In this document: positions 14,029 through 53,603 of the stretch, one piece after another | Numbering within the stretch: position 1 is the first letter of the stretch | Layout of the letters: every line of letters begins with the position of its first letter | NCBI GenBank assembly: GCA_903925275.1 | Contig: CAIYES010000283.1 | Coordinates: 1 to 57,565, forward strand | Length of the DNA: 57,565 nucleotides | Direction of reading: 5' to 3' | From: an uncultured Bacteroidales bacterium | Lineage (GTDB): Bacteria; Bacteroidota; Bacteroidia; Bacteroidales; FEN-979 | Position numbers and translations under genes: made by a program | The notes under the pieces: generated by a model | The model's database searches: none | The model's input: only the letters and a program-made list of their open reading frames with translations | What the model was told of the DNA's origin: nothing

Positions 14029-14094
14029 TCATAAGCGCTTTGAACAACTGAAAACGAAGTAAAACTACAAATTTAACCCCTTTCCCTAATTCCT

Positions 14095-14206
14095 GCATTA
14101 TTTGCATTATTTGCATTATTTGCATTGCTTGCATTGTCTGCATTGCTTGCATTGTCTGCATTGCTTGCATTGTCTGCATTGCTTGCATTGCTTGCATTGT
14201 CTGCAT
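14095..14206 (-). repeat. 9-bp tandem repeat array (GCATTGCTT/GCATTGTCT)
   Basis: About a dozen 9-base units written on the plus strand as GCATTATTT (three copies) and then alternating GCATTGCTT and GCATTGTCT. In the sense direction of the flanking minus-strand genes the unit reads AAGCAATGC. The array begins directly at the stop codon of the second DUF2142 gene (14207-14209) and ends about 65 bases before the start of the first. A related array lies inside the hyf operon at 41750-41883. Confidence 0.9.
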
Positions 14207-20025: not shown

Positions 20026-20140
20026 GTGACAAATGACAAGTGACAAATGACAAGTGACAAATGACAAGTGACAAATGACAAGTGACAAATGACGAGTGAC
20101 GAGTGACAAGTGACAAGTGAAGAGTGACAAGTGACAAGTG
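20026..20140 (+). repeat. TGACAAATGACAAG tandem array
   Basis: About 16 copies of a 7-base unit, mostly TGACAAA, TGACAAG and TGACGAG, starting at the first base after the carboxypeptidase stop codon. Each unit contributes ATGA or GTGA, an overlapped start and stop. The family recurs in the same orientation relative to the genes at 33228-33284 and 53520-53587. A complementary segment lies at 20211-20241. Confidence 0.92.
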
Positions 20141-31630: not shown

Positions 31631-33244
31631 ATGAAGGATTTATACAATGAAGTGACGAAATGTCTGTTGGTACAGACAAAATTTTCCGCATATAGTTTCT
31701 GGAATTATCAGGATGTTTGTGAAATTGTTGGAAAAAAATACCCGGCTGCCCCGCTCGGGCTGCTGACAGTAGCCGCCCTTTTTCCGCAGCACTGGCAATT
31801 CAGGCTGATTGATGAAAATGTCGAACCTTTGCTGGATGAACATTTGCGATGGGCCGATCTTGTTTGCATCGGCGGGATGCTTCCGCAACAAAACAGCATG
31901 CTTGACCTCATTACCCGGGCCCATAACCTCAACGCTGTTGTGGTCGTTGGCGGGCCCGATCCCACATCGCAGCCTGATCTTTATAAGGAGGCCGATTTCC
32001 TTGTACTCGGGGAGGGAGAGAATACCATCCCCATGTTCCTGGAAGATCTGAAGAAAGGTGCGAATAGCGGGAAATACGTCTCTCCCGACAGAGCCGATAT
32101 GCTAAAGGCCGTTGTCCCCCGTTACGATCTGATCCGTTTCACCGATTACATCATGATCGGATTGCAATTCATCCGCGGATGTCCCTTCAATTGCGAGTTC
32201 TGTGATGTTATTGAACTTTACGGACGTATTCCCCGGTTCAAGACCATCGAGCAGGTGATTAAAGAATTGCAATCACTGTATGATCTGGGTTACCGTGGCC
32301 ATATTGACATGGTCGACGACAACTTCATCGGGAACAAGAAAAAGGTCAAAGATTTGTTGCGTGAGATCATCACATGGACCAAGGCACGGAAATACCCCTT
32401 CTATTTTACCACGGAAGCTTCTGTAAATCTTGCCGATGACGATGAGTTACTGCAACTCATGAAGGATGCTGATTTCAGGTATGTCTTTCTTGGAATTGAA
32501 ACGCCCGACAATGACACGCTCGCATTGAACAATAAAAACCAGAACGTCGACAAATCCATTGAAGATGCGGTGATGAAGATCATGTCGTACGGGATGGTGA
32601 GCAATGGCGGCTATATCCTTGGTTTTGACAGCGACCGTGCTCAGATTGCCGACCAGATGATTGCTTCCATTCAGGATTCGGGCATTTGCATGGCCATGAT
32701 CGGACTGCTTTATGCCTTGCCGAACACGCAACTTACCCGCAGGCTTGAATTGGAAAACCGGTTATTCCACATGTCATCCAAATCGGTAACCGATACCGAT
32801 ATTGACCAGATGACGAGCGGGTTGAACTTCCTCACCCTTACTTCCCGTGTCGAAATCCTGAAAAACTATATCCGGATCGTTGAAGCCATTTTCAAGCCTT
32901 CAAATTATTATAAACGGGTCATATACACCGGCCTCCATGTTAAAACCGATTACAAGCATAAACCTGATTTCAAAACATGGCTGGTCTATATGCGCTCTTT
33001 TCTCAAGGTTTGCAAAAAGGCCGGATTTTCGAAGGCCACAGGATATGCTTACTGGAAAATGTTCTTTACGATCATTTTCCGGAATCCCAAAGGAATTGAA
33101 CCGGCTGTGAACCTTGCAGCCATGTTCATCCATTTCATGAAACAAAAGGAGTACATCGTTTCGGTAACGCAAAAGATGATTTCCGCCATTGAAAAAACCG
33201 GCGAGAAGGCGTTTAATGAGAAAATGATGACAAATGACAAATGA
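31631..33244 (+). CDS. B12-binding radical SAM protein (DUF4070 type)
   Basis: A 537-residue protein. The N-terminal 150 residues form a cobalamin-binding-like fold (PAAPLGLLTVAALFP; ADFLVLGEGENTIPMFLEDL). The radical SAM core has FIRGCPFNCEFCD with Cys184, Cys188 and Cys191 (CxxxCxxC) for the [4Fe-4S] cluster, and YFTTEASVNLADDDELLQLM downstream. The C-terminal 150 residues match DUF4070. Relatives carry out methylations or other radical chemistry; the substrate here is unknown. An upstream TTG is possible, but the ATG at 31631 has an AGGAG ribosome site and follows the promoter. The last codons (MTNDK) and the stop are made by a tandem repeat. Confidence 0.87.
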   Translation: MKDLYNEVTKCLLVQTKFSAYSFWNYQDVCEIVGKKYPAAPLGLLTVAALFPQHWQFRLIDENVEPLLDEHLRWADLVCIGGMLPQQNSMLDLITRAHNLNAVVVVGGPDPTSQPDLYKEADFLVLGEGENTIPMFLEDLKKGANSGKYVSPDRADMLKAVVPRYDLIRFTDYIMIGLQFIRGCPFNCEFCDVIELYGRIPRFKTIEQVIKELQSLYDLGYRGHIDMVDDNFIGNKKKVKDLLREIITWTKARKYPFYFTTEASVNLADDDELLQLMKDADFRYVFLGIETPDNDTLALNNKNQNVDKSIEDAVMKIMSYGMVSNGGYILGFDSDRAQIADQMIASIQDSGICMAMIGLLYALPNTQLTRRLELENRLFHMSSKSVTDTDIDQMTSGLNFLTLTSRVEILKNYIRIVEAIFKPSNYYKRVIYTGLHVKTDYKHKPDFKTWLVYMRSFLKVCKKAGFSKATGYAYWKMFFTIIFRNPKGIEPAVNLAAMFIHFMKQKEYIVSVTQKMISAIEKTGEKAFNEKMMTNDK

Positions 33245-33284
33245 CAAATGACAAGTGACAAGTGACGAATGACAAGTGACGAGT
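33228..33284 (+). repeat. TGACAAATGACAAG tandem array across the radical SAM stop
   Basis: About eight 7-base units (ATGACAA, GTGACAA, GTGACGA) that start inside the coding region, supply the stop codon at 33242-33244 and run on 40 bases past it. Same unit and same orientation to the gene as at 20026 and 53520. Confidence 0.9.
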
Positions 33285-33320
33285 GGGAATTTTTAGAAAT
33301 TTTTACATATTTTTTTCATT

Positions 33321-37844: not shown

Positions 37845-38630
37845 TCATTTACATCCAATGAGGTCTAAAACTCCATTGATAAAGGTGAGTGGATGTGGTG
37901 GATTGCCGGGGACAAAAAGATCGACAGGATATTTGTCGAAAAATTCCCTGTTCACTGCGGCACTTCCGCCAAAGATTCCTCCGCTGATGGCATCGGTGCC
38001 TGCAAGGATGACGATTTTGGGTGATGGAACCGCCTCATAGCAGATCTGCAGAGCTTCGGCCATGTTCTGGGTAATGGGGCCTGTGATCACGATACCATCG
38101 GCATGACGCGGGGAAGCAACGAATTCAATGCCGTATCGTCCCATGTCGAAGTTTACATTTCCAGCGGCATTTAGTTCCATCTCGGCCGAATTATCACCCC
38201 CTGCCGAAACCTGGCGAAGTTTTAGCGCATGTTTGAAAAAAGAACGGATCTCTTTGCGTATCATCTCCGGATCAAGCCGTACAGGTTGATCCGCACCAGC
38301 CACTACCGAAAGCCTCTCCCGGATATTGGTGGCCATCTTAAAATCATTGCTAAACCTGATCATACGGGGAAGTGCAAATTCACACTCCCTGCAAAAAACA
38401 CATTTACCAAGATCCATCGCCAACGATGCATGTTCCATGCCGGATGCGACGGAAGTCACACCAATCGCCCCAACCGGACACAGAGAGGTCACTAATTCCG
38501 CTTCAGCTTCGGTGATGTCCCCGCTGATGACCGGCCTCCCCCGAAAAATTCCGCGCAGCTCAACCCTCCGCAGGTCGGGTACGTACTGGCGCCCATGACG
38601 GCGAAGTATGTTTATCTCTTTCAGTGGCAT
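37845..38630 (-). CDS. Hyf/Ehr-type small subunit without its proximal Fe-S cluster ligands (HyfI-like)
   Basis: A 261-residue fusion. Residues 40-95 are a ferredoxin remnant: Cys51 (CPVGAI), Cys77, Cys80 and Cys83 (CVFCREC) can bind one [4Fe-4S] cluster, but the second cluster's cysteines are gone. Residues 135-261 match HyfI/NuoB: YGIEFVASPRHADGIVITGP, SGGIFGGS, VDLFVPG. Where HyfI has CGGCNGCE the protein has AGGDNSAE (Ala143, Asp146, Ala149); the next ligand is Asp213 (GTDAISGG) and the last is Asn243 (VPGNPP). All ligands of the N2/proximal cluster are therefore replaced, while the fold markers are well kept. Last gene of the hyf-like operon. Confidence 0.87.
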   Translation of the reverse strand: MPLKEINILRRHGRQYVPDLRRVELRGIFRGRPVISGDITEAEAELVTSLCPVGAIGVTSVASGMEHASLAMDLGKCVFCRECEFALPRMIRFSNDFKMATNIRERLSVVAGADQPVRLDPEMIRKEIRSFFKHALKLRQVSAGGDNSAEMELNAAGNVNFDMGRYGIEFVASPRHADGIVITGPITQNMAEALQICYEAVPSPKIVILAGTDAISGGIFGGSAAVNREFFDKYPVDLFVPGNPPHPLTFINGVLDLIGCK

Positions 38631-38671
38631 ATATTTAATTCAAAAATCAAAAATCATCTGTTTCCCCGCTC

Positions 38672-38740
38672 ACCATCTCACCATTTCACCATTTCACCAT
38701 TTCACCATCTCACCATTTCACCATTTCACCATTTCACCAA
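38672..38740 (-). repeat. 8-bp tandem array inside the hyf operon (TTTCACCA)
   Basis: About eight units of TTTCACCA/TCTCACCA on the plus strand, or ATGGTGAA in the gene sense, each holding ATG, GTG and TGA. It begins directly at the hyfG-like stop (38741-38743) and ends about 40 bases before the hyfI-like start, in an operon whose other joints mostly overlap. Confidence 0.9.
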
Positions 38741-40273
38741 TTAAAGATCATTCCCACAATAACTCAGGTTAAAACTCTTATTGCACAACGGAAAGTCAGA
38801 TATTTCCTGGTTTCTCACGGCCAGCGCCAGCGCCATCCAGTTATGAAAAGAAGGGTCTTTGGCTTTGTAATGTGACAACTTCCCCGAATGATCAGTTACG
38901 GCAATATGACAAATCTCTCCCCGCCACCCTTCAACGAGTGAAATGGCCAGGGATGAGGGCGCAAGATGAAGATCATAATCCGGATGCCGGACATCGGATT
39001 CCGGATTTTCATCATGCGTAATTTCTTTCAGCAACTCCCGTATCACGGCCATGGATTTTTCAACTTCCAGTTTGCGCAACATGGCTCTTGACCACACATC
39101 CCCCTTGTGCAGCATCACTGGTTCGTAGGGGTGATCGACATAGGCTGAAAACGGTTGCGACCAGCGGATGTCACGATACATGCCGCTGCTTTTCGCGGCC
39201 ATTCCTACGGCGCCAATCAGCGAAGCCTGCATGGTGGTCAACTTCCCTGTACCCTCAAAACGACCCAGCACACTGGGAAGCGAGAAGATCCGGTCGGTAA
39301 CCTGAAGGAATCGTTCTTCGACCTCCTTCAGATTATTTATTATTTCGGCCATGATGTCAGCCGTTAGTGGATAATTTGTTCCGCCGGGGCGGATAAGTCC
39401 CTTGCCAAAGCGGTTACCACACCAGAACTGGGTGGTATTGATGATGATGGTACGCAACGCTTCGTTAACCACCTGCCCGAACTGGTAAGCGATATCGATA
39501 CATAGTGCCGCGGTATCGCCGATGTGAACGCCAATCCGCTCGAGTTCGAGGGCGATGATCCTTTCGATGGATAGTCGTTTGGTAACCGTTATCCCGGCCA
39601 GTGATTCAACCGCCATGGCATAAGCCAGCGAATGGCCGACAGCTGTATCTCCGGCGATGTTTTCGGCCAGTACTGATTGCTGAAGGATGGCCTGCTTTTC
39701 AACAAACTGACTTTCCAATCCGCGATGCTGATATCCGAGTTGAATTTCAAGGTGCAATACCTTTTCCCCATGGCAAATAAAACGGAAATGACCCGGCTCA
39801 ATGATGCCGGCGTGGATGGGACCCACTCCTACTTCATGCAACGCTTCTCCATTGATGGTATAAAACGGGTAGGTATTCATCACATTGGCCACCTCCGACC
39901 TGTTGAACGGATAGCGGATCGGTTTCAGCCACGGATGCCCCGGAAACGCTATACCGAAATTTTCATGGATCTCCCGTTCAAAGACATGAAACTGGAAATG
40001 TTTTGCGGTGATGGATGGCAGTGATGGCGCGGGTTGCAAGGGTTGCTCATGTGAAAAGACCAGGATGGCATGATTTTCATCGGCCGCCATGCAACAGATG
40101 AACCTGTATTTGTCGGGTTGAGGCAGCACAAAATAGGCAACGCAATGGGTTCCCTCTTCCCCCATCAGCAGATCGATGAATGCCACAAAGTCGGGATATT
40201 CCAATACAGGAATATCCTCCAGAAGCAAGGTCGCCGGATTGGAAAATAACTCGATATATTTGTTCTCCTTCAT
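38741..40273 (-). CDS. Hyf/Ehr-type large subunit without NiFe ligands (HyfG-like)
   Basis: A 510-residue protein fusing a NuoC-like domain (FHVFEREIHENFGIAFPGHP, residues 94-113) to a NuoD/NiFe large-subunit domain (QLGYQHRGLESQFVEK onward). In group 4 hydrogenases the first NiFe motif is CGIC; here the aligned stretch is AENIAGDTAVGHSLAY, with Ala207 and Thr210 in place of the cysteines. The second motif, DPCYSC in HycE, is NLSYCG (Ser504, Gly507); a single Cys506 sits between. No NiFe centre can be built. The start is the ATG at 40271-40273, which overlaps the hyfF-like stop by one base; a longer reading to 40387 lies inside hyfF and is not supported. Confidence 0.9.
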   Translation of the reverse strand: MKENKYIELFSNPATLLLEDIPVLEYPDFVAFIDLLMGEEGTHCVAYFVLPQPDKYRFICCMAADENHAILVFSHEQPLQPAPSLPSITAKHFQFHVFEREIHENFGIAFPGHPWLKPIRYPFNRSEVANVMNTYPFYTINGEALHEVGVGPIHAGIIEPGHFRFICHGEKVLHLEIQLGYQHRGLESQFVEKQAILQQSVLAENIAGDTAVGHSLAYAMAVESLAGITVTKRLSIERIIALELERIGVHIGDTAALCIDIAYQFGQVVNEALRTIIINTTQFWCGNRFGKGLIRPGGTNYPLTADIMAEIINNLKEVEERFLQVTDRIFSLPSVLGRFEGTGKLTTMQASLIGAVGMAAKSSGMYRDIRWSQPFSAYVDHPYEPVMLHKGDVWSRAMLRKLEVEKSMAVIRELLKEITHDENPESDVRHPDYDLHLAPSSLAISLVEGWRGEICHIAVTDHSGKLSHYKAKDPSFHNWMALALAVRNQEISDFPLCNKSFNLSYCGNDL

Positions 40274-41712
40274 TATTTCGGCAGTGCGTTGATAATCGAT
40301 TCGATCAGTTGGCGGAACGGTGCGGGCTGAACAAAACAGATGAAAATGACAAGCCCGAACAAAATATATTGACTGGCCGATTGCCACGGGTTTACTTTTT
40401 GCATTTCATGAAGCGGTTTTTCGCGGGGCTGGGAATAGACGATGTGCAGCACCCTGGTAAGCAAGGCGTAGAGCACAAAACACAGCAGCAGCGCGGTAAC
40501 AGCGAGCAGCATATAATCGTGTGAAATAACCATGGCCTTCATCAGGTACAATTCCGAGATGAACATCCCCGATGGCGGGATGGCCGTGATGCAGAGAAAC
40601 CCCAGCAGCAGGGCTGTCGCACCTGCCGGATAGAGTGACATGTAATTTCCCGACTCATCGAGTTTGTAAGTTCCCATCACTTTGTACGACTGCCCCATCT
40701 GGTAGAATAACCCTGCTTTGGTAAAGGAGTGGAGCACGATGTGCAGGATGGCTGCATAGTATCCAATTCCGCCAACCCCGAGGGCGATGGCGACAATTCC
40801 CATGTTTTCGAGGCTTGAATAGGCCAGCATGCGTTTGTTATGCTTGGCTTTGAGCATGTATCCTGCAGATACAAGCAAGGACAATACCCCCGACAGGATC
40901 AGGACATGGTTCATGAAAGGAAGGATTGTCGTGGCCGAGAAGAGGGCATAGATGCGGAAAATTGCGAGAAACCCGACATTCATCAGCGTGGTGGAGATGA
41001 ATGCGCTGATAGGCGGAGGCGAAACGGTATGAGCATCGACAGTAACGGTATGCATCGGGAAAAGCCCCATCTTGGTACTGTAGCCTACCAGGACAAATAC
41101 GAAGGCGATTTTCAGATAGAGCGGATTTGCCATCCGTGCAATTTCGGTGATACTGTTGAAAGAGAGGTGAAGCAAACGGGCATCATGCACGGTAAATCCA
41201 AGGAACAGGATGCCGAGATAGGCCAGTGCGATCCCAATGGAACAAACAAAAACATATTTCCAGGTGGCTTCCAGTGCCATCGGGGTGCGATCGTGGTAGA
41301 TCAGCGCGGCAACTGCCAGTGTGGTGGCCTCAACAAAGATCCACACGGTGGTCATTCCGTTTGCCAGATAGGCTCCCGACATGGCGGCAACCAGGAAAAT
41401 CAGGGCTGCATGATAGATGGAATACACCCTTGGCGCAGCATCCTTCACATAAATAAACCCATGATAGACCGTTGTGATCGTGAGTATCGACAGGATAGAC
41501 AGCAACAAAACGCCCAACGGGTCGAAGGTGAAATAGTCGAGTACGGTTTCGCCCAAATGAAGCCAGCCATATCCGGAAAAACCAAGATGCATGGCCACAT
41601 AGAGGATCGTTATACCCCTCACCAGCGGTTTATGATGCACCAACCCGGCCACCGCCCCCATCAGAAGCGAAATCACAAAAAACCCAACCAAAATATATCC
41701 TTGTTCAGACAT
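40273..41712 (-). CDS. hydrogenase-4 component F-like, NuoN/M-type proton channel subunit
   Basis: A 479-residue membrane protein of the complex I antiporter-like family, with about 14 helices. VGYSTKMGLFPMHTVTVDAHTVSPPPISAFIS contains the lysine and histidines of the proton path, and KAKHNKRMLAYSSLENMGIVAIALG is the next conserved segment. It would be one of two proton- or sodium-pumping modules of the complex. Its ATG is separated from hyfE by about 170 bases filled with a tandem repeat; its stop overlaps the hyfG start. Confidence 0.9.
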   Translation of the reverse strand: MSEQGYILVGFFVISLLMGAVAGLVHHKPLVRGITILYVAMHLGFSGYGWLHLGETVLDYFTFDPLGVLLLSILSILTITTVYHGFIYVKDAAPRVYSIYHAALIFLVAAMSGAYLANGMTTVWIFVEATTLAVAALIYHDRTPMALEATWKYVFVCSIGIALAYLGILFLGFTVHDARLLHLSFNSITEIARMANPLYLKIAFVFVLVGYSTKMGLFPMHTVTVDAHTVSPPPISAFISTTLMNVGFLAIFRIYALFSATTILPFMNHVLILSGVLSLLVSAGYMLKAKHNKRMLAYSSLENMGIVAIALGVGGIGYYAAILHIVLHSFTKAGLFYQMGQSYKVMGTYKLDESGNYMSLYPAGATALLLGFLCITAIPPSGMFISELYLMKAMVISHDYMLLAVTALLLCFVLYALLTRVLHIVYSQPREKPLHEMQKVNPWQSASQYILFGLVIFICFVQPAPFRQLIESIINALPK

Positions 41713-41749
41713 TATAACAATTTCACCATTTTAAAAGACACAAAGTCAT

Positions 41750-41883
41750 ATTGTTTTCATTGCTTTCATTGTTTTCATTGCTTGCATTGCTTGCATTGTT
41801 TGCATTGCTTGCATTGCTTGCATTGCTTGCATTGCTTGCATTGTTTGCATTGCTTGCATTGTTTGCATTGCTTGCATTGTTTC
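41750..41883 (-). repeat. 9-bp tandem array inside the hyf operon (GCATTGCTT)
   Basis: About 14 units of GCATTGCTT/GCATTGTTT with TTCATTG variants at the left end. In the gene sense it is AAGCAATGC. It begins directly after the hyfE-like stop (41884-41886) and ends about 38 bases before the hyfF start. Same unit family as at 14095-14206. A trace of the TTTCACCA unit (41719-41727) lies next to it. Confidence 0.92.
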
Positions 41884-42501
41884 TCAATCGTCTTTCAACA
41901 TCGTCAGCTCATGTGCACTTTGTTTCAAACGCATCACAAATATCCCCAGGATCAGTACACTGACAAAAATATCGAGCAATATGCCAATGTTTATCAGCAT
42001 GGGCATCTCGCTGCCGATGGCCAGGGAAAGCAACAAAACGGCATTTTCAATAACCAGAAAACCGACCAGATGTGAAAATATCTTTTTATGGGAGATGATC
42101 ATGAAAAGTCCGGTATATACCGCAAAAAAAGCTACGATAAAGTAAATCATGTTGGCAGGAGTGGTGTTCATTGAGAAAGAGACCACGATACTCAGCAACA
42201 ATCCCATGGTTACGAAAAGCAGGGAATAAAACCCCGGCAATGCTTTGTCGTGTACCCGTGCCTCGCCGGTTTTGCTGATGATGCGGAATAACAGAAAAGG
42301 CACGACGATCACCTTGAACACCAATGTTTCCAGGGCCACGAAAATCAATGTTGCCAAGGTGATGGCATGAAGTTCAAGAAATGACAAGGCGAACAGCAAC
42401 ACACCCTGAAAACCAATCAGTCCGGCATATATCGGGAAACGCTCTGTCATGCTGAGATAGATCAGTGTGATGGCAAAAACGATGATAAGCAGCACATTCA
42501 T
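41884..42501 (-). CDS. hydrogenase-4 component E-like membrane subunit
   Basis: A 205-residue protein with about six helices, matching HyfE: a NuoK-like core (LVIENAVLLLSLAIGSEMPMLINIGILLDIFVSVLILGIF) after N-terminal helices. The glutamate in VIENAV is the conserved channel residue. It starts immediately after hyfC's stop (adjacent bases) and is part of the membrane arm of the complex. Confidence 0.88.
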   Translation of the reverse strand: MNVLLIIVFAITLIYLSMTERFPIYAGLIGFQGVLLFALSFLELHAITLATLIFVALETLVFKVIVVPFLLFRIISKTGEARVHDKALPGFYSLLFVTMGLLLSIVVSFSMNTTPANMIYFIVAFFAVYTGLFMIISHKKIFSHLVGFLVIENAVLLLSLAIGSEMPMLINIGILLDIFVSVLILGIFVMRLKQSAHELTMLKDD

Positions 42502-43467
42502 TTAACCAATCATTTTGAAGGTGATCAACAGTACCAGGATGAAAGCCACCAGGGCAATCGAACTCAGGGTGACGATGAATTGCGGGTTCCGGACAAGTTT
42601 CTTGCGTGCCCTGAATGATTCCATCAATCCGATCAACGCGGCAAACACCACCTGGATCAAAAAATAAACCCCAACCTGGATTACAAGCAGCCACGCAATT
42701 CCTTCATGATACTCTATTCCATTTTCACTGTTAACCAACCATTTCACATCTTCCGCCGGAACCAGAAAGTTGGCGATAAGCAGTCCGTACATGGCGAATT
42801 TCAGCGCGGTACCGATTTGCATCAGGGCAAGGTCAAATCCGCTGTGGTCAAGAATCATCACCTCGTGGATCATGGTCAGTTCAAGATGCGTTTTCGGATC
42901 ATCAACCGGCATGCGGCTGTTCTCAATCATGGCAATCTGTATCAGCAGATAAACTGCAATAAAACCGATGATGAAGGAGTTATGCCCGGCAAACTGGAAC
43001 GATTCAAAAATTTGTTGCATGGAGGTATATCCGGTCAGCAATGCCAGGGTGCCAAACAGGATGAAAAAAGCCGGTTCGGCCAGCATGGAGTAGAGCGCTT
43101 CGCGGTTTGCACCCATCCCTTCAAAACTGCTGCCGGTATCCAGTGCCCCCAGGATGAAAAGAAATTTTCCCAGGGCCAGGAGGTAGGCAAACAAGATAAA
43201 GTCGCCTGAAAAGCCAAACAAAGAAGGCATTCCTGGGAATGGCAGCAACAGCAGGGCACAGATAATGGTTGACAAATAGATTGCCGGGGCGATTCGGAAT
43301 ACAAAACTTGTGGTGGTACTGATTACGCTTCCTTTATGCAACAGCACCCGGATATTTTTCCATGGCTGAAGGATGCCAGGCCCTTTGCGGCCACTGGCCA
43401 TGCTTTTTACCCGAAGGATGATCCCCGGAAAAAACAGCGCAGTGACGATGGCCAGCAGAAGTCCCAT
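42502..43467 (-). CDS. hydrogenase-4 component C-like, NuoH-type anchor subunit
   Basis: A 321-residue NuoH/HyfC family protein with eight predicted helices. MIENSRMPVDDPKTHLELTMIHEVMILDHSGFDLALMQIG carries the conserved acidic loop and ENSRMPVDDP motif that face the peripheral arm. In complex I and group 4 hydrogenases this subunit links the redox subunits to the channels. Its start codon overlaps the hyfB stop by one base. Confidence 0.92.
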   Translation of the reverse strand: MGLLLAIVTALFFPGIILRVKSMASGRKGPGILQPWKNIRVLLHKGSVISTTTSFVFRIAPAIYLSTIICALLLLPFPGMPSLFGFSGDFILFAYLLALGKFLFILGALDTGSSFEGMGANREALYSMLAEPAFFILFGTLALLTGYTSMQQIFESFQFAGHNSFIIGFIAVYLLIQIAMIENSRMPVDDPKTHLELTMIHEVMILDHSGFDLALMQIGTALKFAMYGLLIANFLVPAEDVKWLVNSENGIEYHEGIAWLLVIQVGVYFLIQVVFAALIGLMESFRARKKLVRNPQFIVTLSSIALVAFILVLLITFKMIG

Positions 43468-45449
43468 TATAAAATTTTCATATAAAGCAGGATGAAAATG
43501 ATCAACATGAAGATAAATGCGTATAAAATGTAATGCTGTATGTTTCCTGTTTGCAGTCGTGCAATCTTTTTAAGTGCCAGCATAGAGAAATCAACTATTT
43601 TATTGATCCCCGAATGGAATATATCTGCCGGATGGAGGGTAAAAGAGCGCTTTCCCGGGAAAATATCCTCTTCGTGAATCGGCCTGTAATCCGTTTTTGA
43701 ATGCAGGACCGGATCGGCCAGTTCTGCAAAATTTGCGGAAAAAGAACCTGCCGTGTACTGCTGGCGGGCCGTTCCTGCTGTGTAGCCACATCCCCAGGTC
43801 GGCCCATAAACCACCTTTTCAGGCTTTATGACTATCTTCCGCAGGCTCAACAATGCAATCGTTACGATAATCAGGATAATTCCGACAATGTTTATTTTTG
43901 ACAACGCCTTGATCAGCGGAGCAACCACCGGTTCGGGATTAACATGAAACTGTGCGCCGATCATCCCCGTCAGGGGCGATAAAAACAATACGGGAGCCAG
44001 TCCGATGAGCAGTATAATCGCGGCAATGAGCAACTTCGGGAATAACATTCCGGGGCTGATTACATTTTTCTCCATGTGAATTTCCGACCGGGATGTGCCA
44101 AGGAAGGTCAGACCAAATGCTTTTGAAAACCCGAACAAGGCCAGTCCGCCGATAAGCGCAAGCGCCAGGATGGTCATCAGCATCGACATGGTCTGGAACA
44201 CCGACACTGCCTGCAAGCCTGCAAAAAGTCCATAATAAATCAGGATTTCCGAGACAAAACCGTTGAGCGGAGGCAAGGCACAGATTGCCGCAGCACCGAA
44301 CAGGAAAAGGCCTGCCGTGCGGGGCATAGAATGGATCAATCCGCCCAATTGCGCCATGTTGCGGGTATGGGTTGCTTTATAAACCGATCCGGCGCTGTAA
44401 AACAGGAGCGATTTGAAGAGCGAATGATTCAGCACATGGAACAATCCGCCACCAAAGCCGAGGATGGTAAGCACCGGCTGATTCAGCCCCATGCCGATCG
44501 AACCCAGCCCGATTCCCATGCCGATGATGCCGACATTTTCAATGGTTGAATAGGCCAGGAGTTTTTTCAGGTCGGTTTGCACGATCGACATCATGATGCC
44601 GTACAATCCGGTGAGAGTGGCGATGATCATGATGAGGATTCCGATAATATAAAAATCGGCATGAACAGTGGTCAGCACCCTGATGATCCCGAAGATACCC
44701 ATTTTGATCATCACGCCCGACATAACCCCCGATACATGTGAAGGAGCCGCAGGATGAGCTTCAGGAAGCCAGGTATGAAAGGGGATGAATCCTGCCTTGA
44801 TGGCAAACCCTGCAAAAAACAGGAAGAAGATCGGCGTGTTGGGATGTCTTGAAAAAAAGATAGGCAATCCGTCAAAACCAAAATATCCGGTATCGGCTTC
44901 CACCAGAAGGAAGGCTATGATCAGCAATACCAGTCCGACATGCATCTGGATCAGGTAATTGACCGCAGTTTTCAGCGTGGTTCGTTTCTCAGCCTCGAAA
45001 AGGATCAGCATGAACGACGATACGGCCATCAACTCCCATGCAATCAGGAATGCTGTGCCATCGCGCAGCATCAGCACACATAACATTGACAAATGCAGCC
45101 AGACATAGCTGAAATAATGCAATGCAAACTGGGCTGGTGTTTTGGTGGTGCGATACGACCTGAGATACCCGTTTGAGTACAACAACCCTGTGAATACCGT
45201 AAAATTGGTGACCAGTATAAAAAAAGCGCTCAGGCTGTCGAGGGTGAAGGTGATCGAACCGAGCGGGCCACCTTCAATAAATATCAGGGGGGCACTATCC
45301 GTGTGAAACAATGTAACAGCAGCCGGTACCGATGTTATCAGGATAATGAAAACTGTTACTCCCAGGGTATAAATGTAACGCATCCCGGAAGGCATAACCA
45401 GGATGAAAAACGAAAGAATTACCGGTGTCAGGATAGCAATGTTTTCCAC
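43467..45449 (-). CDS. hydrogenase-4 component B-like, NuoL-type proton channel subunit
   Basis: A 660-residue antiporter-like subunit with about 16 helices. GFAIKAGFIPFHTWLPEAHPAAPSHVSGVMSGVMIKMG is the conserved proton-path region, and LKKLLAYSTIENVGIIGMGIG contains the second key lysine. The last 120 residues (about GPTWGCGYTAGTARQQYTAGSFS) match the HyfB C-terminal segment. It starts with GTG at 45449 (GTG GAA AAC). It is the first gene of the six-gene operon hyfB-C-E-F-G-I; no hyfA, D or H is present. Confidence 0.9.
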   Translation of the reverse strand: MENIAILTPVILSFFILVMPSGMRYIYTLGVTVFIILITSVPAAVTLFHTDSAPLIFIEGGPLGSITFTLDSLSAFFILVTNFTVFTGLLYSNGYLRSYRTTKTPAQFALHYFSYVWLHLSMLCVLMLRDGTAFLIAWELMAVSSFMLILFEAEKRTTLKTAVNYLIQMHVGLVLLIIAFLLVEADTGYFGFDGLPIFFSRHPNTPIFFLFFAGFAIKAGFIPFHTWLPEAHPAAPSHVSGVMSGVMIKMGIFGIIRVLTTVHADFYIIGILIMIIATLTGLYGIMMSIVQTDLKKLLAYSTIENVGIIGMGIGLGSIGMGLNQPVLTILGFGGGLFHVLNHSLFKSLLFYSAGSVYKATHTRNMAQLGGLIHSMPRTAGLFLFGAAAICALPPLNGFVSEILIYYGLFAGLQAVSVFQTMSMLMTILALALIGGLALFGFSKAFGLTFLGTSRSEIHMEKNVISPGMLFPKLLIAAIILLIGLAPVLFLSPLTGMIGAQFHVNPEPVVAPLIKALSKINIVGIILIIVTIALLSLRKIVIKPEKVVYGPTWGCGYTAGTARQQYTAGSFSANFAELADPVLHSKTDYRPIHEEDIFPGKRSFTLHPADIFHSGINKIVDFSMLALKKIARLQTGNIQHYILYAFIFMLIIFILLYMKIL

Positions 45450-45634: not shown

Positions 45635-48600
45635 CTAATCCTTCAAACATCTCCCTGCAAATGCATTCGAACGGTTCGAGTAATAATCTGAAACACTGAA
45701 ATTCTGACGGTTCATCCCATGGGAGAGGGCTTTGATTATGCCAAATGAGTCTGATGACCAGAAGAAAGTTGCAAATCCCTGGTATTTCCAGGTCATGTTG
45801 CTGTAAACGAATCCGCTCTCAATGGCCCTGAACCCATTGATAATGGAATCCTGCAAAGGTTTCCCTGCAAGACCCTGGGTAATACTGGCATTGAAAAGGG
45901 TCATCCATTCAGCTTGCGTGGGGACATGCCAGCCCGGAGGACAAAGTCCCTGAGAGCCTGGAGTAGTATTGTAAGCCATTAGTTCATCCCACTGATAGAG
46001 TCCTCCGTAAAGAGTGCAGTTTGCAGCATTGTCGTTGTAACAATATTTTTCATTCAAACAATTGTCGGTTTGCGCCGTTCCACTATAAATGGTTTTTCCG
46101 TAATTCAGGTTTTTTCGCATCCAGCATTGGGTCCCGATCTGAATGGTGGGATAGACTTTATTATCCCGGATATCCGTCAGATTGTTTCCACAACTGAAAA
46201 TCGGAGCGGCCTGCACGATGATATTCCGGGTCATCAAAGCGCTGCAAGAATATGTATTGGTGTAGGCATAGGTGATTGTTTTGGTTCCTACACCAGCAAG
46301 GGAAGGAGTAAAAACTCCGGTACCGGAATTAACTCCCGGTCCTGAATAGGTTCCTCCTAATGGCAGTCCTCCTTTTAGAACAAAAGCTGCAGAATTGATG
46401 GTAGTGATGCTGTCGAAACACAAGGTAAAAGAGACCGACGGAGCAGCCAGGGCATTCATCACGATGGTGTTCGAGCTTACCGGGTTATTCGTGATGCAGG
46501 ACAGGCTGGAGTTCATCACGCACTGCACGATATCCCCCTGCAAGGGGATGTAAGAATAGGTGGTTGCATTGGTCCCTGCATTGACCCAGTTCACTTTCCA
46601 CTGGTATGATGGTGTGATTCCACCATTCGTGGGAAAGGCTGAACAACTGACCGTACTCCCCGAACAGAACGGGTTTGGAACGGCTGTAATGGATACCCCG
46701 GTAGCAAGATTATTGATCACGTTCATCGTTACCGTATTGCTTGTTGCCGGGTTATTCGTGGTGCAGGCAGTATAGGAAGAGGTAAGAACACAGCTTACCA
46801 CATCATGGTTCACCGGGATCCAGGTGAAGGTGGATAAGTTGGTCCCGGCATTGACGCCGTTCACCTTCCACTGGTAAAAGGGAGTTGATCCTTCATTGAC
46901 CGGGTATGCGGTACACATAACCGAAGTTCCCTGGCAAACCGTGTCCGATGACGCGGATATGGTCACCGACACTGTATAGTTCGGATTAACGGTCATAGTC
47001 ACCACATTGCTCGTGGCCGGATTATTCGTTACACAGGTCGTAAGCGAAGAGGTCATTACACAACTGACCTTGTCATTATTAACCGGGATGCAGGTGAAGG
47101 TTGATGAGTTTGTCCCGGCATTAACGCCGTTCACCTTCCACTGGTAACCCGGGGATAATCCTTCGTTAACCGGCAGGGCGGTAAACAACACAGTATTCCC
47201 GGCGCAGACGGGGTTTGGCGACGCGGATACCGTAAGACTTACCGGGTGGTTCTGATCCACCTGCATGATGACGGTGTTGCTGGTAGCGGGATTATTCGTA
47301 ACACAAACGGTAAGCGAAGAGGTCATCACGCAACTTACCTGGTCATTATTAACCGGGATGCAGGTGAAGGTGGATGAGTTGGTCCCGGCGTTGACGCCGT
47401 TCACCTTCCACTCGTAAACCGGTGATGATCCTTCATTGACGGGATGAGCGGTAAACAGGACTGGGGTTCCTGCGCATATCGGGTTAAAAGAGGATGTAAT
47501 GGTTACAGAAACCGGCTGCATGGGATTTACGATCATGGTGACGAAATTCGAGGTAGCCGGGTTATTGAAAACGCATATCGTGTTTGATGTTGTCAGAATA
47601 CAGTTCACTATGTCATTATTGACCGGGGGATAGGTAAACACAGAAGAATTTGTCCCGGCATCGACTCCGTTCACTTTCCATTGGTAGGAAGGAGAAGAAC
47701 CTCCGGAGGTTGGTGTTGCGGTAAACGTGACAGAAGTCCCTGAGCAAATATTATTCACCGATGCTGAAATGCTCACTTTTACTGAATCTCCCGGGTTTAC
47801 CGTGACCGGAAAATCCACCGCTGATCCACTACAGCTTCCTATCTTAGGAGTGATATGATAGGTTACGATCCCAGGTGTGGCAAGGGAATTTAGCAGTACC
47901 TGGTTAATGACCAGTCCTGAATCGGCAGAGAAACCGGTCACACTCCCCGTCGACAATGTGGCTGTCCAATGAAACATTGCTCCGGGTGGAATTGAAGTAA
48001 GCGAAATATTCGTTGATTCACCTGTACAGATTGTTTTTACAAGCGGCGGATTATTAGCCAATGCTGGTACAGAGGTAGTCGACAATTGCACAGTATCTCT
48101 TCCAATACAGCCATTTTGACTTGTAACAGCCACTTCATAGGTTCCTGCCTGCCCTGTTGTAAAAGTTTGGGCAGTGCCTACCGGAAGTCCGGAAATAAGG
48201 TCTTTCCATAAGTAGGCACTCCCTGTGCCGGAACCTGCGTCAAATGTCACCAAATCCCCGGTACAGATGGTCTGATCAGTGCCAAGGTTGGGTTGGGGAG
48301 TGGGATAGATCGTTAATGTTCGCCGTGTGGTGTCTGTTCGGTTATCGATGTGCCGGACATACAATTCAACCGTATAGGTTCCGGCGTTGGAATATGTATG
48401 CAAAGGATTTGGCAGCGTAGAGAAATTCGCGGGACCGGATAAGGGATCATCAAAATTCCATCGTATTGTATCGGGCTGGGGCCAGATGGAAGAAGTGAAG
48501 GTAACGGGTGCATGCGAACATAAATCATCAGGATAATGGATGATCGCATAATACCGTTGGACGAATTGAGGTAAACCATACGATGATTGCAAGCCTCCTA

Positions 48601-49843
48601 AAGGAACTGCACTTTTAATGAAATTACAACCCAATCCCTGAATTTCAGGATTTTGAATAACTCCTAAAGTGTCCTTATCACCCCTCGGATAAACAAGGTA
48701 TATTTTATTGTCCGGGCCAAGCTGCATTAATCCCTCATTTGTAAGATGGTTGTCAATCTGTATTTTACTTTGAATGAATTGAAGAGAATCAGTTTTAGTG
48801 GCATCATACTGGTAAAGATAGTAATACCAGTGAAGATAAAGATAATGTGAATCAACCGAAAATTCTGCGGATGGACAGTTTCCATTACCGATCTTTATTT
48901 TGAACATGGGATTTAACACGCCTGTCGAGGCATTGAACTGGCAATATTCAAGTGTATCCTTTATCAGGCATACAGCTTTTGTTCCATCCTGTGAGAATTT
49001 CATCATCATACCCGGGACATACTCTCCGGGAGTAAAAAGCAGATGTACACTGCTGTTTACAACAATAGGAACCGTAACCAATCCCGAGGAATTAACAAGA
49101 TAGGTCAGGTAAGTATTGTTTATATAATCCCTCACTGTGATCCAGACATCCCGGTTATTCCTGTGCCGCGTGCCTGTTAAGATCGCTCCCGTTTGAGCGG
49201 CTCCGGGCACCCCAATGCTCTGTTCACCGGCTGGGACATCACCTAATCCGCCGTCAAGGGTCATATCCACTACAGAATAGGTAAGACCATGAGGTGTAAG
49301 ATAACGTGGTGGCAATAATTCTTCATCCATCGTGAACACTAAATATTGGGTTTGACTGCCTGGTATTTGAACCGCAAGGTAGTTTTGTATTGTTTGCCAT
49401 CCGGTAAACAGAAAATAACCATTTGGCATCCTTACATGATTCCTGTTACAGATCACCCCGCCACTGTTTTCCGCACCGAGCCATATTCCGGCGTAAAACA
49501 ACAGGTTTCCCAGGGAGTCGGAAACTGTTGAGGAGGTGAATTTATCATCGAAGGAGGTAGCGCAATTCGTCAATGCAACAGGAGTGCCCGAATTGAATGT
49601 GACGCCGGCATGCATGCCGAAATACCAGTTGTTGAATTCTCCCTGGGAATAGGAAGTTAAAGACAAAACAAGACAGCTGATCAGTAGAATTACGCTTTTG
49701 AATATCTTACCGGTTCTTCTGATTGGGATCCGGGTTTTGTTCCCGATGAAGTTTTTACCTGGTCCTGAAAAGTCAACAGATTTTTCTCTCCGGTAAATAC
49801 CGGTAAAAAATACAAGAAAATCGTTGAAGATTTTAATCCTCAA
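45635..49843 (-). CDS. large secreted protein with PKD, five Ig-like repeats and a FISUMP domain
   Basis: A 1,402-residue protein. The signal peptide seems to be internal: 45 residues precede the hydrophobic stretch SVILLISCLVLSLTSYSQ, and the apparent start is a TTG at 49843, so the true start is uncertain. Then come an N-terminal domain (GEFNNWYFGMHAGVTFNSG), a PKD domain (residues about 450-530), a SprB/Ig-like stretch, five tandem Ig-like repeats of 88-90 residues (about 682-1130, each with YQWKVNGVNAGTN) and a C-terminal FISUMP domain (IQIGTQCWMRKNLNYG; LCPPGWHVPTQAEWM; AGRCLKD). A probable surface adhesin. No type IX sorting tail is seen. Confidence 0.82.
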   Translation of the reverse strand: MRIKIFNDFLVFFTGIYRREKSVDFSGPGKNFIGNKTRIPIRRTGKIFKSVILLISCLVLSLTSYSQGEFNNWYFGMHAGVTFNSGTPVALTNCATSFDDKFTSSTVSDSLGNLLFYAGIWLGAENSGGVICNRNHVRMPNGYFLFTGWQTIQNYLAVQIPGSQTQYLVFTMDEELLPPRYLTPHGLTYSVVDMTLDGGLGDVPAGEQSIGVPGAAQTGAILTGTRHRNNRDVWITVRDYINNTYLTYLVNSSGLVTVPIVVNSSVHLLFTPGEYVPGMMMKFSQDGTKAVCLIKDTLEYCQFNASTGVLNPMFKIKIGNGNCPSAEFSVDSHYLYLHWYYYLYQYDATKTDSLQFIQSKIQIDNHLTNEGLMQLGPDNKIYLVYPRGDKDTLGVIQNPEIQGLGCNFIKSAVPLGGLQSSYGLPQFVQRYYAIIHYPDDLCSHAPVTFTSSIWPQPDTIRWNFDDPLSGPANFSTLPNPLHTYSNAGTYTVELYVRHIDNRTDTTRRTLTIYPTPQPNLGTDQTICTGDLVTFDAGSGTGSAYLWKDLISGLPVGTAQTFTTGQAGTYEVAVTSQNGCIGRDTVQLSTTSVPALANNPPLVKTICTGESTNISLTSIPPGAMFHWTATLSTGSVTGFSADSGLVINQVLLNSLATPGIVTYHITPKIGSCSGSAVDFPVTVNPGDSVKVSISASVNNICSGTSVTFTATPTSGGSSPSYQWKVNGVDAGTNSSVFTYPPVNNDIVNCILTTSNTICVFNNPATSNFVTMIVNPMQPVSVTITSSFNPICAGTPVLFTAHPVNEGSSPVYEWKVNGVNAGTNSSTFTCIPVNNDQVSCVMTSSLTVCVTNNPATSNTVIMQVDQNHPVSLTVSASPNPVCAGNTVLFTALPVNEGLSPGYQWKVNGVNAGTNSSTFTCIPVNNDKVSCVMTSSLTTCVTNNPATSNVVTMTVNPNYTVSVTISASSDTVCQGTSVMCTAYPVNEGSTPFYQWKVNGVNAGTNLSTFTWIPVNHDVVSCVLTSSYTACTTNNPATSNTVTMNVINNLATGVSITAVPNPFCSGSTVSCSAFPTNGGITPSYQWKVNWVNAGTNATTYSYIPLQGDIVQCVMNSSLSCITNNPVSSNTIVMNALAAPSVSFTLCFDSITTINSAAFVLKGGLPLGGTYSGPGVNSGTGVFTPSLAGVGTKTITYAYTNTYSCSALMTRNIIVQAAPIFSCGNNLTDIRDNKVYPTIQIGTQCWMRKNLNYGKTIYSGTAQTDNCLNEKYCYNDNAANCTLYGGLYQWDELMAYNTTPGSQGLCPPGWHVPTQAEWMTLFNASITQGLAGKPLQDSIINGFRAIESGFVYSNMTWKYQGFATFFWSSDSFGIIKALSHGMNRQNFSVSDYYSNRSNAFAGRCLKD
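46455..47797 (-). repeat. five tandem Ig-like repeat modules (about 267 bp each)
   Basis: DNA encoding five consecutive 88-90 residue modules of the surface protein. Shared text includes TCTPVNNDxVSCVMTSS-like and NNPATSNxVTM segments; modules 2 and 3 are nearly identical (TFTCIPVNNDQVSCVMTSSL and TFTCIPVNNDKVSCVMTSSL), which points to recent duplication. Confidence 0.9.
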
Positions 49844-52155: not shown

Positions 52156-53517
52156 TTAACGCCCCCCTCTGCCACTGGCGCCACCTCTTTGCATCTGCGG
52201 CGCAAACGGATTTTGTTGCTGCTGAGTAGTCTGGGTTCCTTGTGCCGTAGTCATACTGAGCACGACCTCCTCTCCTTCCTCAATTTTGCCGCGAACTTCG
52301 GTATTCAACCCATCGGTTACACCCGATCTCACCCGGCGTGGCTTAATGGAGTCGCCTGCTTTGACCCAGATCATACCAAAATTTCCCCGCCGCTGATGAT
52401 CCCCTCCTCCGCGTGAACCCTGCATGGCACCTGCGTTTCCACCACCCATCATACCTTCTGCCATTCCTCCGCCCATTCTCCCCGACATACCCCCCTGGCC
52501 TGCTGATCCGCCTGAACCAATGCGTCCGCCTTCTTTTGCCCATTTTTCCCGTTTCTTTTTTATCGAATCGGGCAGGTTTTTCATCATCGCATCGATATAT
52601 TCCTGGGGTGGATTGAATCGCAATGCCGTAGCCGGCACTTTTAAAATATCCTTCACCTCCTGTATCATCACCGTGATGTTAGCGGTCATCCCGGGCAACA
52701 ATTTAAGGTCGGGATTTGGAACATCAATGATCACGGTATAGTTAACCACATTCTGGGTAACCACCGGCTGAAGCCGAACCTGTCGGACGGTTCCGTCGAA
52801 AGTCATATCGGGGTAAGCGTCCACTGTAAATTTTACCGTCTGACCTACCTGGATCTTTCCGATATCACCCTCGTCGATGTTAGCCTGCACCTGCATCTTT
52901 GTAAGGTCGTTGGCAATAGTGAACATGGTTGGTGTGCTGAAGCTGGCCGCTACCGTTTGTCCGACATCCACGGCGCGCGAAACCACCACCCCCGAAATAG
53001 GTGCGATGATGGTGGCATACCGCAGGTTGATCTTTGAACGGCTCAGCGCCGACTGGGCTGAAATCGCATTGGCCACAGCCGTTTCATACGTTGTCAGCGC
53101 GAGATCATAATCAGCCTGGGCAAGAACCTTTTGCTCAAATAAAACCTTTGTGCGGTCGTAATCCCGTTTCGACTGGTTTACCTGAATTTCAGACTTCTTC
53201 AATGAAGCTTTTGCATCATCTACTGCCTGCGCCAGCAAGGTGGTATCAAGCACGGCGATGACTTGTCCCTCCTTGACCACAGAGTTAAAATCCACATATA
53301 TTTTTTTGATGATCCCCGAAACCTGGGTGCCAACCTGTACGGTTGTGACAGCCTGCAATGTTCCGCTTGCCCTCACTGTTACCTGAAGATCGCCCTTTTC
53401 CACCTTGGCAGTCCGCCATTCAATAGCTGCCGTCTTTTTCTTCCCAAAAATCAGCCATCCTGCAACCACGGCAATAACCACCACCACGACAATAATAATC
53501 CAATATGCCTTTTTCAT
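52156..53517 (-). CDS. MacA/HlyD-type efflux adaptor with Gly/Met-rich insert
   Basis: A 453-residue membrane-fusion protein: one N-terminal helix (WIIIVVVVIAVVAGWLIF), lipoyl half (SGTLQAVTTVQVGTQVSGIIKKIYVDFNS), coiled-coil hairpin (about 100-175), then beta-barrel segments (ATIIAPISGVVVSRAVDVGQTVAASF). Unlike normal MacA (about 370 residues), it has a low-complexity insert of about 50 residues (about 325-378) rich in Gly, Met and Ser (GGMSGRMGGGMAEGMMGGG) and another Gln/Gly/Arg-rich tail (TQQQQNPFAPQMQRGGASGR). It joins the ABC permease to TolC. Confidence 0.9.
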   Translation of the reverse strand: MKKAYWIIIVVVVVIAVVAGWLIFGKKKTAAIEWRTAKVEKGDLQVTVRASGTLQAVTTVQVGTQVSGIIKKIYVDFNSVVKEGQVIAVLDTTLLAQAVDDAKASLKKSEIQVNQSKRDYDRTKVLFEQKVLAQADYDLALTTYETAVANAISAQSALSRSKINLRYATIIAPISGVVVSRAVDVGQTVAASFSTPTMFTIANDLTKMQVQANIDEGDIGKIQVGQTVKFTVDAYPDMTFDGTVRQVRLQPVVTQNVVNYTVIIDVPNPDLKLLPGMTANITVMIQEVKDILKVPATALRFNPPQEYIDAMMKNLPDSIKKKREKWAKEGGRIGSGGSAGQGGMSGRMGGGMAEGMMGGGNAGAMQGSRGGGDHQRRGNFGMIWVKAGDSIKPRRVRSGVTDGLNTEVRGKIEEGEEVVLSMTTAQGTQTTQQQQNPFAPQMQRGGASGRGGR

Positions 53518-53519
53518 TG

Positions 53520-53587
53520 TAATTTGTTATTTGTTATTTGTCACTTGTCACTTGTCACTTGTCATTTGTCATTTGTCACTTGTCATT
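53520..53587 (-). repeat. TGACAAATGACAAG tandem array between tolC and the adaptor gene
   Basis: About nine 7-base units. In the gene sense they read ATGACAAGTGACAAATGAC, ending AACAAATAACAAATTACA directly before the adaptor ATG. It begins 16 bases after the tolC stop and ends at the next start codon, so it replaces the usual leader. Same orientation as at 20026 and 33228. Confidence 0.92.
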
Positions 53588-53603
53588 TTTACTATCGTCT
53601 AAT

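Follow-up and report, generated by a model that had tools for sequence, protein, structure and literature searches.

What can a hydrogenase-like complex do once most of its redox centers are gone? This question is raised by an operon on contig CAIYES010000283.1 (GenBank assembly GCA_903925275.1) of an uncultured Bacteroidales bacterium, the full 57,565 nucleotides of which are called the window here. Its minus strand from 45449 to 37845 carries six intact open reading frames (ORFs), hyfB-C-E-F-G-I, with zero internal stops. By their sequences, the products form a member of the energy-converting hydrogenase-related (Ehr) class, the relatives of group 4 hydrogenases that lack the NiFe Cys residues. 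We infer that the complex moves ions without redox catalysis, and the explanation toward which we lean, with moderate confidence, is a redox-silent Ehr complex that is gated or driven by a ligand and in which the one remaining cluster is structural or sensing. A broader statement is offered more tentatively: this may be a machine of the complex I superfamily that has left redox chemistry altogether, with Asp-x-Asp-Asn in place of the proximal cluster and the junction kept for a non-redox ligand event.

The small subunit HyfI carries the first part of the evidence. The window protein has six Cys, and C51, C77, C80 and C83 make up one complete [4Fe-4S] ligand set. In the NuoI pattern, a cluster is held by the three Cys of the second motif and the last Cys of the first; on this pattern and by comparison with complex I, we take the set to be that of the medial cluster (N6b). 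The distal (N6a) and proximal (N2) clusters are without a complete ligand set, and the proximal ligand positions are occupied by D146, A149, D213 and N243. Of the distal-medial-proximal chain of hydrogenase relatives, only the medial ligand set is thus complete, and loss of the proximal cluster leaves the medial one isolated.

To place these losses, HyfI sequences were taken from the window, from 11 further genomes with clear relatives (L005-L015; E 3e-34 to 4e-92) in a set of 296 Bacteroidota genomes that includes the window's, and from the best 80 of 567 confirmed stretches in a one-genome-per-species collection, ranked by similarity to the window protein. The remaining matches in the 296-genome search were far weaker than those 11. 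All four proximal Cys are kept in 20 of the 92 sequences (termed N2-full), and the full proximal ligand set is missing from 72 (termed N2-less), a proportion that is not a prevalence because the best 80 were ranked by their similarity to the window protein. A fairer sample, though again probed with the window protein (E <= 1e-40), consisted of 375 evenly drawn Bacteroidia genomes. The gene was found in 15 of them, the window's included, spread over 13 of 188 sampled genera; 14 of the 15 were without proximal ligands and all 15 had the medial ligands.

The substitutions in the 72 N2-less proteins follow a pattern. D146 is present in 69, D213 and N243 in 67 each, and all three jointly in 63; in the nine rows that depart from the pattern, at least one of the three positions is E, A, G, H or S instead. 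Position 149 is variable, with Cys in 53. Medial ligands are present in all 92 sequences, and ligands of the distal set are missing from 71 of the 72 N2-less rows and from 10 of the 20 N2-full rows. (Later HyfI alignments omit L088, which has a stop in the extracted range, and L101.) One sequence, L076, has lost the proximal and kept the distal ligands, whereas L010, L013 and L111 show the reverse, and the clusters were therefore lost piecemeal.

In a HyfI tree made with the ligand columns removed, the 72 N2-less sequences are set apart by a branch whose support in the Shimodaira-Hasegawa-like approximate likelihood ratio test (SH-aLRT) is only 79%. By record names, 68 of the 70 N2-less loci among the best 80 are Bacteroidota, with Acetofilamentum counted among them; L090 and L097 are named otherwise. 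An earlier reading of the window, made from the sequence only, had proposed checking whether the lost Cys define a conserved clade. The tree separates such a group, and the loss extends beyond the window genome. The same reading had regarded Cys-keeping close relatives as a sign of assembly error. Relatives of this kind exist, since L006-L013 keep the proximal Cys at 48-54% identity to the window HyfI, but the loss is common to many intact genes with patterned substitutions and is thus neither an assembly error nor decay.

The view that the operon is a dying hydrogenase or an artefact of assembly is already contradicted by these data and is hardly credible. It could draw on the loci in which the gene pair is broken: HyfI immediately follows HyfG in 67 of the 73 loci from the best 80 of 567 that could be tested, and in the other six (L037, L061, L064, L065, L084 and L092) HyfI has no HyfG upstream. 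A genome search recovered a strong HyfG elsewhere in three of those six genomes, and in the other three no HyfG of the same type was found (none in two, and matches of 25-27% in the third). Against decay stand the intact ORFs, the 28 aligned N2-less relatives that are 52-71% identical to the window protein with the same patterned substitutions, and the strict conservation of HyfG and of proton-path residues described below. In L064, a HyfE-like gene adjoins HyfI on the opposite strand.

The regularity of D146, D213 and N243, which fill three of the four places once taken by ligands, each of them conserved in 67-69 of the 72 N2-less proteins, also raises the idea that another metal ion or cofactor has taken the place of the proximal cluster at the Asp-x-Asp-Asn site. 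We give this a low probability. The fourth position is variable and is Cys in 53 of the 72, and nine rows are off the pattern; furthermore, the two Asp may merely replace the negative charge of the cluster. With a net charge of -2 for the cluster, two Asp might preserve the electrostatics of the junction.

The large subunit HyfG has lost the NiFe site. On alignment with HycE, three of the NiFe Cys positions are A207, T210 and S504, and the fourth is G507, placed by extension two residues past the end of the HycE alignment. The set of 74 HyfG sequences used for counting comprises 65 full-length ORFs of more than 450 aa from the best-80 loci and the window and nine partial sequences from the 296-genome search (L014 and L015 omitted). 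None of the 74 has Cys at 210, 504 or 507, and seven have Cys at 207. Two statements of the sequence-only reading, that the ligands of both the NiFe center and the proximal cluster are lost and that one cluster is left in a nearly empty redox chain, thus hold for the pair of soluble subunits. Neither the two NiFe-binding CxxC pairs nor the proximal [4Fe-4S] cluster that mark a group 4 NiFe hydrogenase are present.

A quinone pocket of the complex I type was considered and rejected, as both headgroup residues are replaced: H38 and Y87 of Nqo4 correspond to I158 and G208 in an alignment with 2fug_4. In the 57 N2-less HyfG, I158 is found in 57 and G208 in 55. By contrast with these losses, HyfG E159 aligns with MbhL E21, a Glu of the hydrogenase proton relay (PMC7684303), and is present in 57 of 57 N2-less HyfG. 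It is among the identical positions of HyfG, which number 81 across all 57 N2-less sequences and 61 across all 74.

Both soluble subunits are predicted to keep their folds, as had been proposed. The AlphaFold model of HyfI has a predicted local distance difference test (pLDDT) score of 89.1, and its best structural match is 7z0t_G, to which 136 residues of its NuoB part align with a root-mean-square deviation of 1.8 (Z 16.2); this comparison covered residues 126-261, so that the ferredoxin part was barely tested. The HyfG model has a pLDDT of 88.6 and its best match in the PDB is 7z0s_E. Both matches are subunits of the E. coli formate hydrogenlyase (FHL). The models are of single chains, and the cavity and the geometry of the Asp/Asp/Asn site lie outside their scope. 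Loops 153-158 and 506-510 of HyfG hold many invariant residues, yet they are modeled with low confidence, which would fit loops that become ordered only within the complex.

The membrane arm has kept the residues expected of a proton path. The motifs that had been noted in the NuoL-type and NuoN-type subunits were both recovered, at residue 225 in HyfB as in HyfF. Conservation was counted over 46-47 N2-less loci for HyfC, HyfE and HyfF and over 42 for HyfB, as contigs are cut, and the listing took only positions conserved in at least 93%, so that lost residues cannot appear in it. The fully conserved charged residues are E139, K218, K249, E304, K346 and E401 in HyfB (42/42); E123, E131, E182, D189, D190, E196, E202, D207, K223 and E283 in HyfC (each 46/46); E58, K63 and D177 in HyfE (47/47); and E128, E148, K214, D226, E302 and K332 in HyfF (47/47). 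We take the charged residues of HyfC to be the coupling axis, by homology and without residue-by-residue mapping onto a solved structure.

The proton half of the complex is strongly constrained and the electron half is not; together with the isolation of the remaining cluster, this is why a non-redox ion transporter is favored. In such a transporter, HyfB, HyfF, HyfE and HyfC would form a module of the complex I/Mrp type that translocates protons or cations, and HyfG and HyfI would keep the shape, the cavity and the proton link into the membrane arm, with the electron chain gone. A non-redox event in the old cavity, in which a small ligand is bound or converted or a partner protein binds, may open, gate or drive ion movement. 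The working mode would resemble that of an Mrp- or DAB-type machine equipped with the coupling junction of complex I, and the isolated [4Fe-4S] cluster could serve as a structural element or as a sensor of redox state, oxygen or iron.

Several observations weigh against this interpretation. The invariance of the medial ligands would be natural for a role in electron transfer, and the 81 invariant residues of HyfG suggest that the subunit holds an active site like that of an enzyme, not just a gate. The Asp/Asp/Asn site could bind another metal and so restore a redox site. No neighboring gene recurs in more than 4 of 69 loci downstream or 3 of 47 upstream, so that the neighborhoods point to no ligand.

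Some of these observations would suit a pump that is still driven by redox chemistry, in which the medial cluster takes electrons from ferredoxin or some other donor and the electrons reach a quinone or other acceptor in the cavity by a route that known members do not show. The medial ligands are kept in all 92 proteins although the same domain tolerates the loss of its other cluster, and the cavity subunit HyfG is highly conserved. We nevertheless regard such a pump as unlikely: the proximal cluster is absent from 72 of the 92 HyfI, the quinone residues are replaced, and no donor gene is present in the operon or among the 26 scanned window proteins, in agreement with the earlier remark that nothing in the locus feeds in electrons from NADH, F420, formate or CO. 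Chemistry of the type of the membrane-bound sulfane sulfur reductase (MBS) requires the proximal cluster itself (PMC7684303) and is excluded because that cluster is gone here. The sequence-only reading had offered two possibilities, ion pumping coupled to ferredoxin or quinone through the remaining cluster and an ion transporter regulated by another protein; the former is weakened by the medial position of the cluster and by the changes at the proximal and quinone sites, and the latter seems to fit better.

A further possibility is suggested by the genes next to hyfI. The commonest is a SulP transporter gene, directly downstream in 4 of the 69 loci with at least 1 kb of downstream sequence, compared with two for the runner-up family. 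This would suit an inorganic-carbon or anion machine, in which the cavity handles CO2/HCO3- by vectorial hydration as in DAB, or the ion gradient feeds an anion transporter of the SulP type. A rough binomial estimate gives 5e-8 to 8e-7 for four such neighbors, assuming 0.0005-0.001 per neighbor and independent loci, and these figures overstate the enrichment because L066 and L089 are sisters. Consistent with a carbon role, Acidithiobacillus caldus has a hyf operon beside a gene for a beta-carbonic anhydrase (PMC3826726), and DAB2 is a case in which CO2 hydration is coupled with an antiporter-like subunit (PMC13144422). On the other side, the next gene is something other than SulP in 65 of the 69 loci, no DabA-like Pfam domain was found in the six operon proteins, to which the search for DabA was confined, and the window genome, about 95% complete, gave zero SulP matches and has an ordinary beta-carbonic anhydrase. 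We judge a carbon or anion machine improbable, and the absence of a SulP match in the window genome rules out a SulP-linked carbon role as a general answer. In L052, about 8 kb separate HyfI from a fifth SulP gene, and SulP-like sequence was seen by eye beside HyfI in L124, L006 and L015. In L048, the SulP gene is followed by a weak carbonic-anhydrase match under the cut-off. Two other flank families occur in six and five loci, next to HyfI in none or one.

The complex can also be compared with known systems. The Ehr assignment made earlier is upheld by the absence of the NiFe Cys and by Proton_antipo_M domains in HyfB and HyfF: the locus shares with Ehr a hydrogenase-4-like operon, antiporter-like subunits and a large subunit without NiFe Cys. 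It differs in that the proximal and distal ligands are also absent and in its conserved Asp/Asp/Asn at the proximal site. E. coli FHL (7z0s/7z0t), a hydrogenase-4 system, is the best solved sequence match for HyfG, HyfC and HyfB and the best predicted-fold match for HyfG and HyfI; compared with it, the window operon is without the NiFe site, the proximal cluster, formate dehydrogenase and maturation genes. The closest solved sequence to HyfI is from the membrane-bound hydrogenase (MBH) of Pyrococcus (6cfw_J, 9e-24), with E. coli FHL second best. The Glu of MbhL is retained from MBH, and the NiFe site and proximal cluster are not. Mrp antiporters are multi-subunit ion/proton exchangers built of antiporter-like subunits, and they are not known to have NuoB-, NuoD- or NuoH-like subunits; the window complex contains all three and is thus not an Mrp system alone. 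The NADH module of complex I (NuoE/F/G) was found neither in the six operon proteins nor in the 20 other scanned window proteins.

MBS resembles the window complex as a complex I relative without the quinone residues that has kept the NiFe Cys only in part (PMC7684303), and its duplicated MbsH is paralleled by a second HyfB-like gene, upstream of hyfB, in 18 loci, which gives three antiporter-like subunits. MBS reacts at its proximal cluster and has no counterpart of E21 (PMC7684303), whereas here the cluster is absent and the Glu is kept; the three-Cys proximal catalytic cluster of MBS and Mbx is not found in the window HyfI. DAB and DAB2 similarly have an antiporter-like membrane subunit without electron transfer, but DAB has the carbonic-anhydrase-like DabA (PMC13144422) where the window complex has a cytoplasmic arm of the NuoB/NuoD type.

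Other Ehr complexes differ in which clusters they retain. On plasmid pMESIL01 of Allomeiothermus silvanus (L134:10986-13135), which belongs to a different phylum, the proximal and distal ligands are lost and the medial ones kept; this loss is a second change on the HyfG tree, where a long-branch warning applies to that sequence. The plasmid Ehr of Methylocalor, Burkholderia, Rhizobium, Azospirillum and Rhodococcus have a small subunit without the ferredoxin domain and with the proximal Cys kept; separate ferredoxin subunits were checked for among annotated neighbors only. On plasmid 3 of Variovorax sp. PBL-E5 (L128), the ferredoxin domain is present in the first small subunit and all ligands are kept. 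The Ehr small subunits examined have no one cluster in common, and this argues against a continuous electron chain as the shared feature of the family. The Variovorax plasmid carries two Ehr operons a few kilobases apart, and the second small subunit is cut by the end of the stretch. The plasmid Ehr loci L128, L130, L132, L135 and L136 lie near genes such as those for universal stress protein, YoaK, YjdM, HPr and spermidine synthase, and the combination differs from locus to locus.

Ehr complexes are themselves already known. They have been discussed as redox machines or as being of unknown function (PMC6349859, PMC10284858), and pH homeostasis has been suggested for one (PMC6688271); in the excerpts covered, their function is called unknown or merely proposed. 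No statement that Ehr require an iron-sulfur chain was found in the portions of the literature searched, and proximal-cluster loss in Ehr was not described there; the central Ehr papers Coppi 2005 and Marreiros 2013, together with the Schoelmerich and Muller review, fell outside the search and may hold an earlier description. The replacement of the proximal cluster by Asp/Asp/Asn, together with distal loss, is to that extent an apparently unreported Ehr variant. How electron transfer is coupled to proton movement in complex I is still debated, and a junction and proton path without the terminal clusters amount to a natural dissection experiment on what the junction does without electrons. If our reading is right, nature has separated the proton half of complex I from the electron half. 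Concrete targets for learning what Ehr do are the operons of Chryseolinea serpens and Arcticibacter, which are among the named records in the best 80 of 567.

The features of the window operon and of the related loci are collected in the table.

Table. Genes and gaps of the hyf operon in the window, SulP genes next to hyfI, and loci with a second HyfB-like gene.
Feature	Stretch	Coordinates	Strand	Description
hyfB	window	43467..45449	-	660 aa, GTG start; NuoL/HyfB-type antiporter-like subunit
hyfC	window	42502..43467	-	321 aa; NuoH-type membrane anchor
hyfE	window	41884..42501	-	205 aa; small membrane subunit
hyfE-hyfF gap	window	41713..41883	-	171 bases; mostly 9-base tandem repeat
hyfF	window	40273..41712	-	479 aa; NuoN/HyfF-type antiporter-like subunit
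hyfG	window	38741..40273	-	510 aa; NuoC-NuoD/HyfG-type large subunit (fused 30/49-kDa)
hyfG-hyfI gap	window	38631..38740	-	110 bases; mostly 8-base tandem repeat
hyfI	window	37845..38630	-	261 aa; ferredoxin-domain + NuoB-type small-subunit fusion
SulP	L042	10872-12545		directly downstream of hyfI
SulP	L048	5998-8743		directly downstream of hyfI
SulP	L066	10781-12487		directly downstream of hyfI
SulP	L089	10778-12481		directly downstream of hyfI
second HyfB	L039, L046, L047, L054, L057, L059, L060, L062, L063			
second HyfB	L072, L077, L078, L080, L081, L083, L085, L091, L094			

The six genes had been described as one operon with overlapping starts and stops. Three of the five junctions are indeed tight (hyfB/C and hyfF/G overlap by one base and hyfC/E abut), and the other two are open gaps. 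All six genes stand uninterrupted in the order B-C-E-F-G-I at 50 of 80 loci, and contig ends cut many of the others. Pfam assigned Proton_antipo_M to HyfB and HyfF, NADHdh to HyfC, the 49-kDa and 30-kDa families to HyfG and Oxidored_q6 to HyfI, with the ferredoxin domain of HyfI scoring under the Pfam cut-off. The NCBIfam matches shown for all six Hyf proteins are under their curated cut-offs, among them hydrogenase 4 subunit B for HyfB (7e-147) and hydrogenase 4 membrane subunit for HyfE (7e-11), which is the only match of HyfE, as Pfam gave zero.

In terms of the neighborhood, 26 window proteins were scanned; the window has 58 ORFs of at least 120 aa, many of them spurious, and the ORF at 45635-49843 lay outside the scan. 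The scanned neighbors are unrelated: upstream lies an ABC efflux set, and the genes downstream encode a TPR membrane protein, acetate kinase and 3-hydroxyacyl-CoA dehydrogenase. The claim that hydrogenase maturation genes are missing is correct for the 26 scanned proteins and does not extend to the genome: a family search found HypD on contig C17, where genes resembling hypA/B/E and a NiFe hydrogenase bearing the motifs RVCGVC and DPCLAC were recognized by eye next to it. The absence of maturation genes is therefore a trait of the locus and not of the organism. Two complex I operons were also recognized by eye in ORF translations from the window genome; together with the hydrogenase and the hyp genes, they account for contigs C17, C104 and C535 (L138-L140).

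Tandem repeats of 7-9 bases fill parts of the two hyf gaps (38670-38739 and 41750-41879) and recur in the window at 14094-14207, 20024-20140, 33227-33285 and 53517-53588. Repeats of the CAATGCAAG type are found on contigs C17 and C104 of the window genome as well, where they appear as MQT/MQA runs in the translations.

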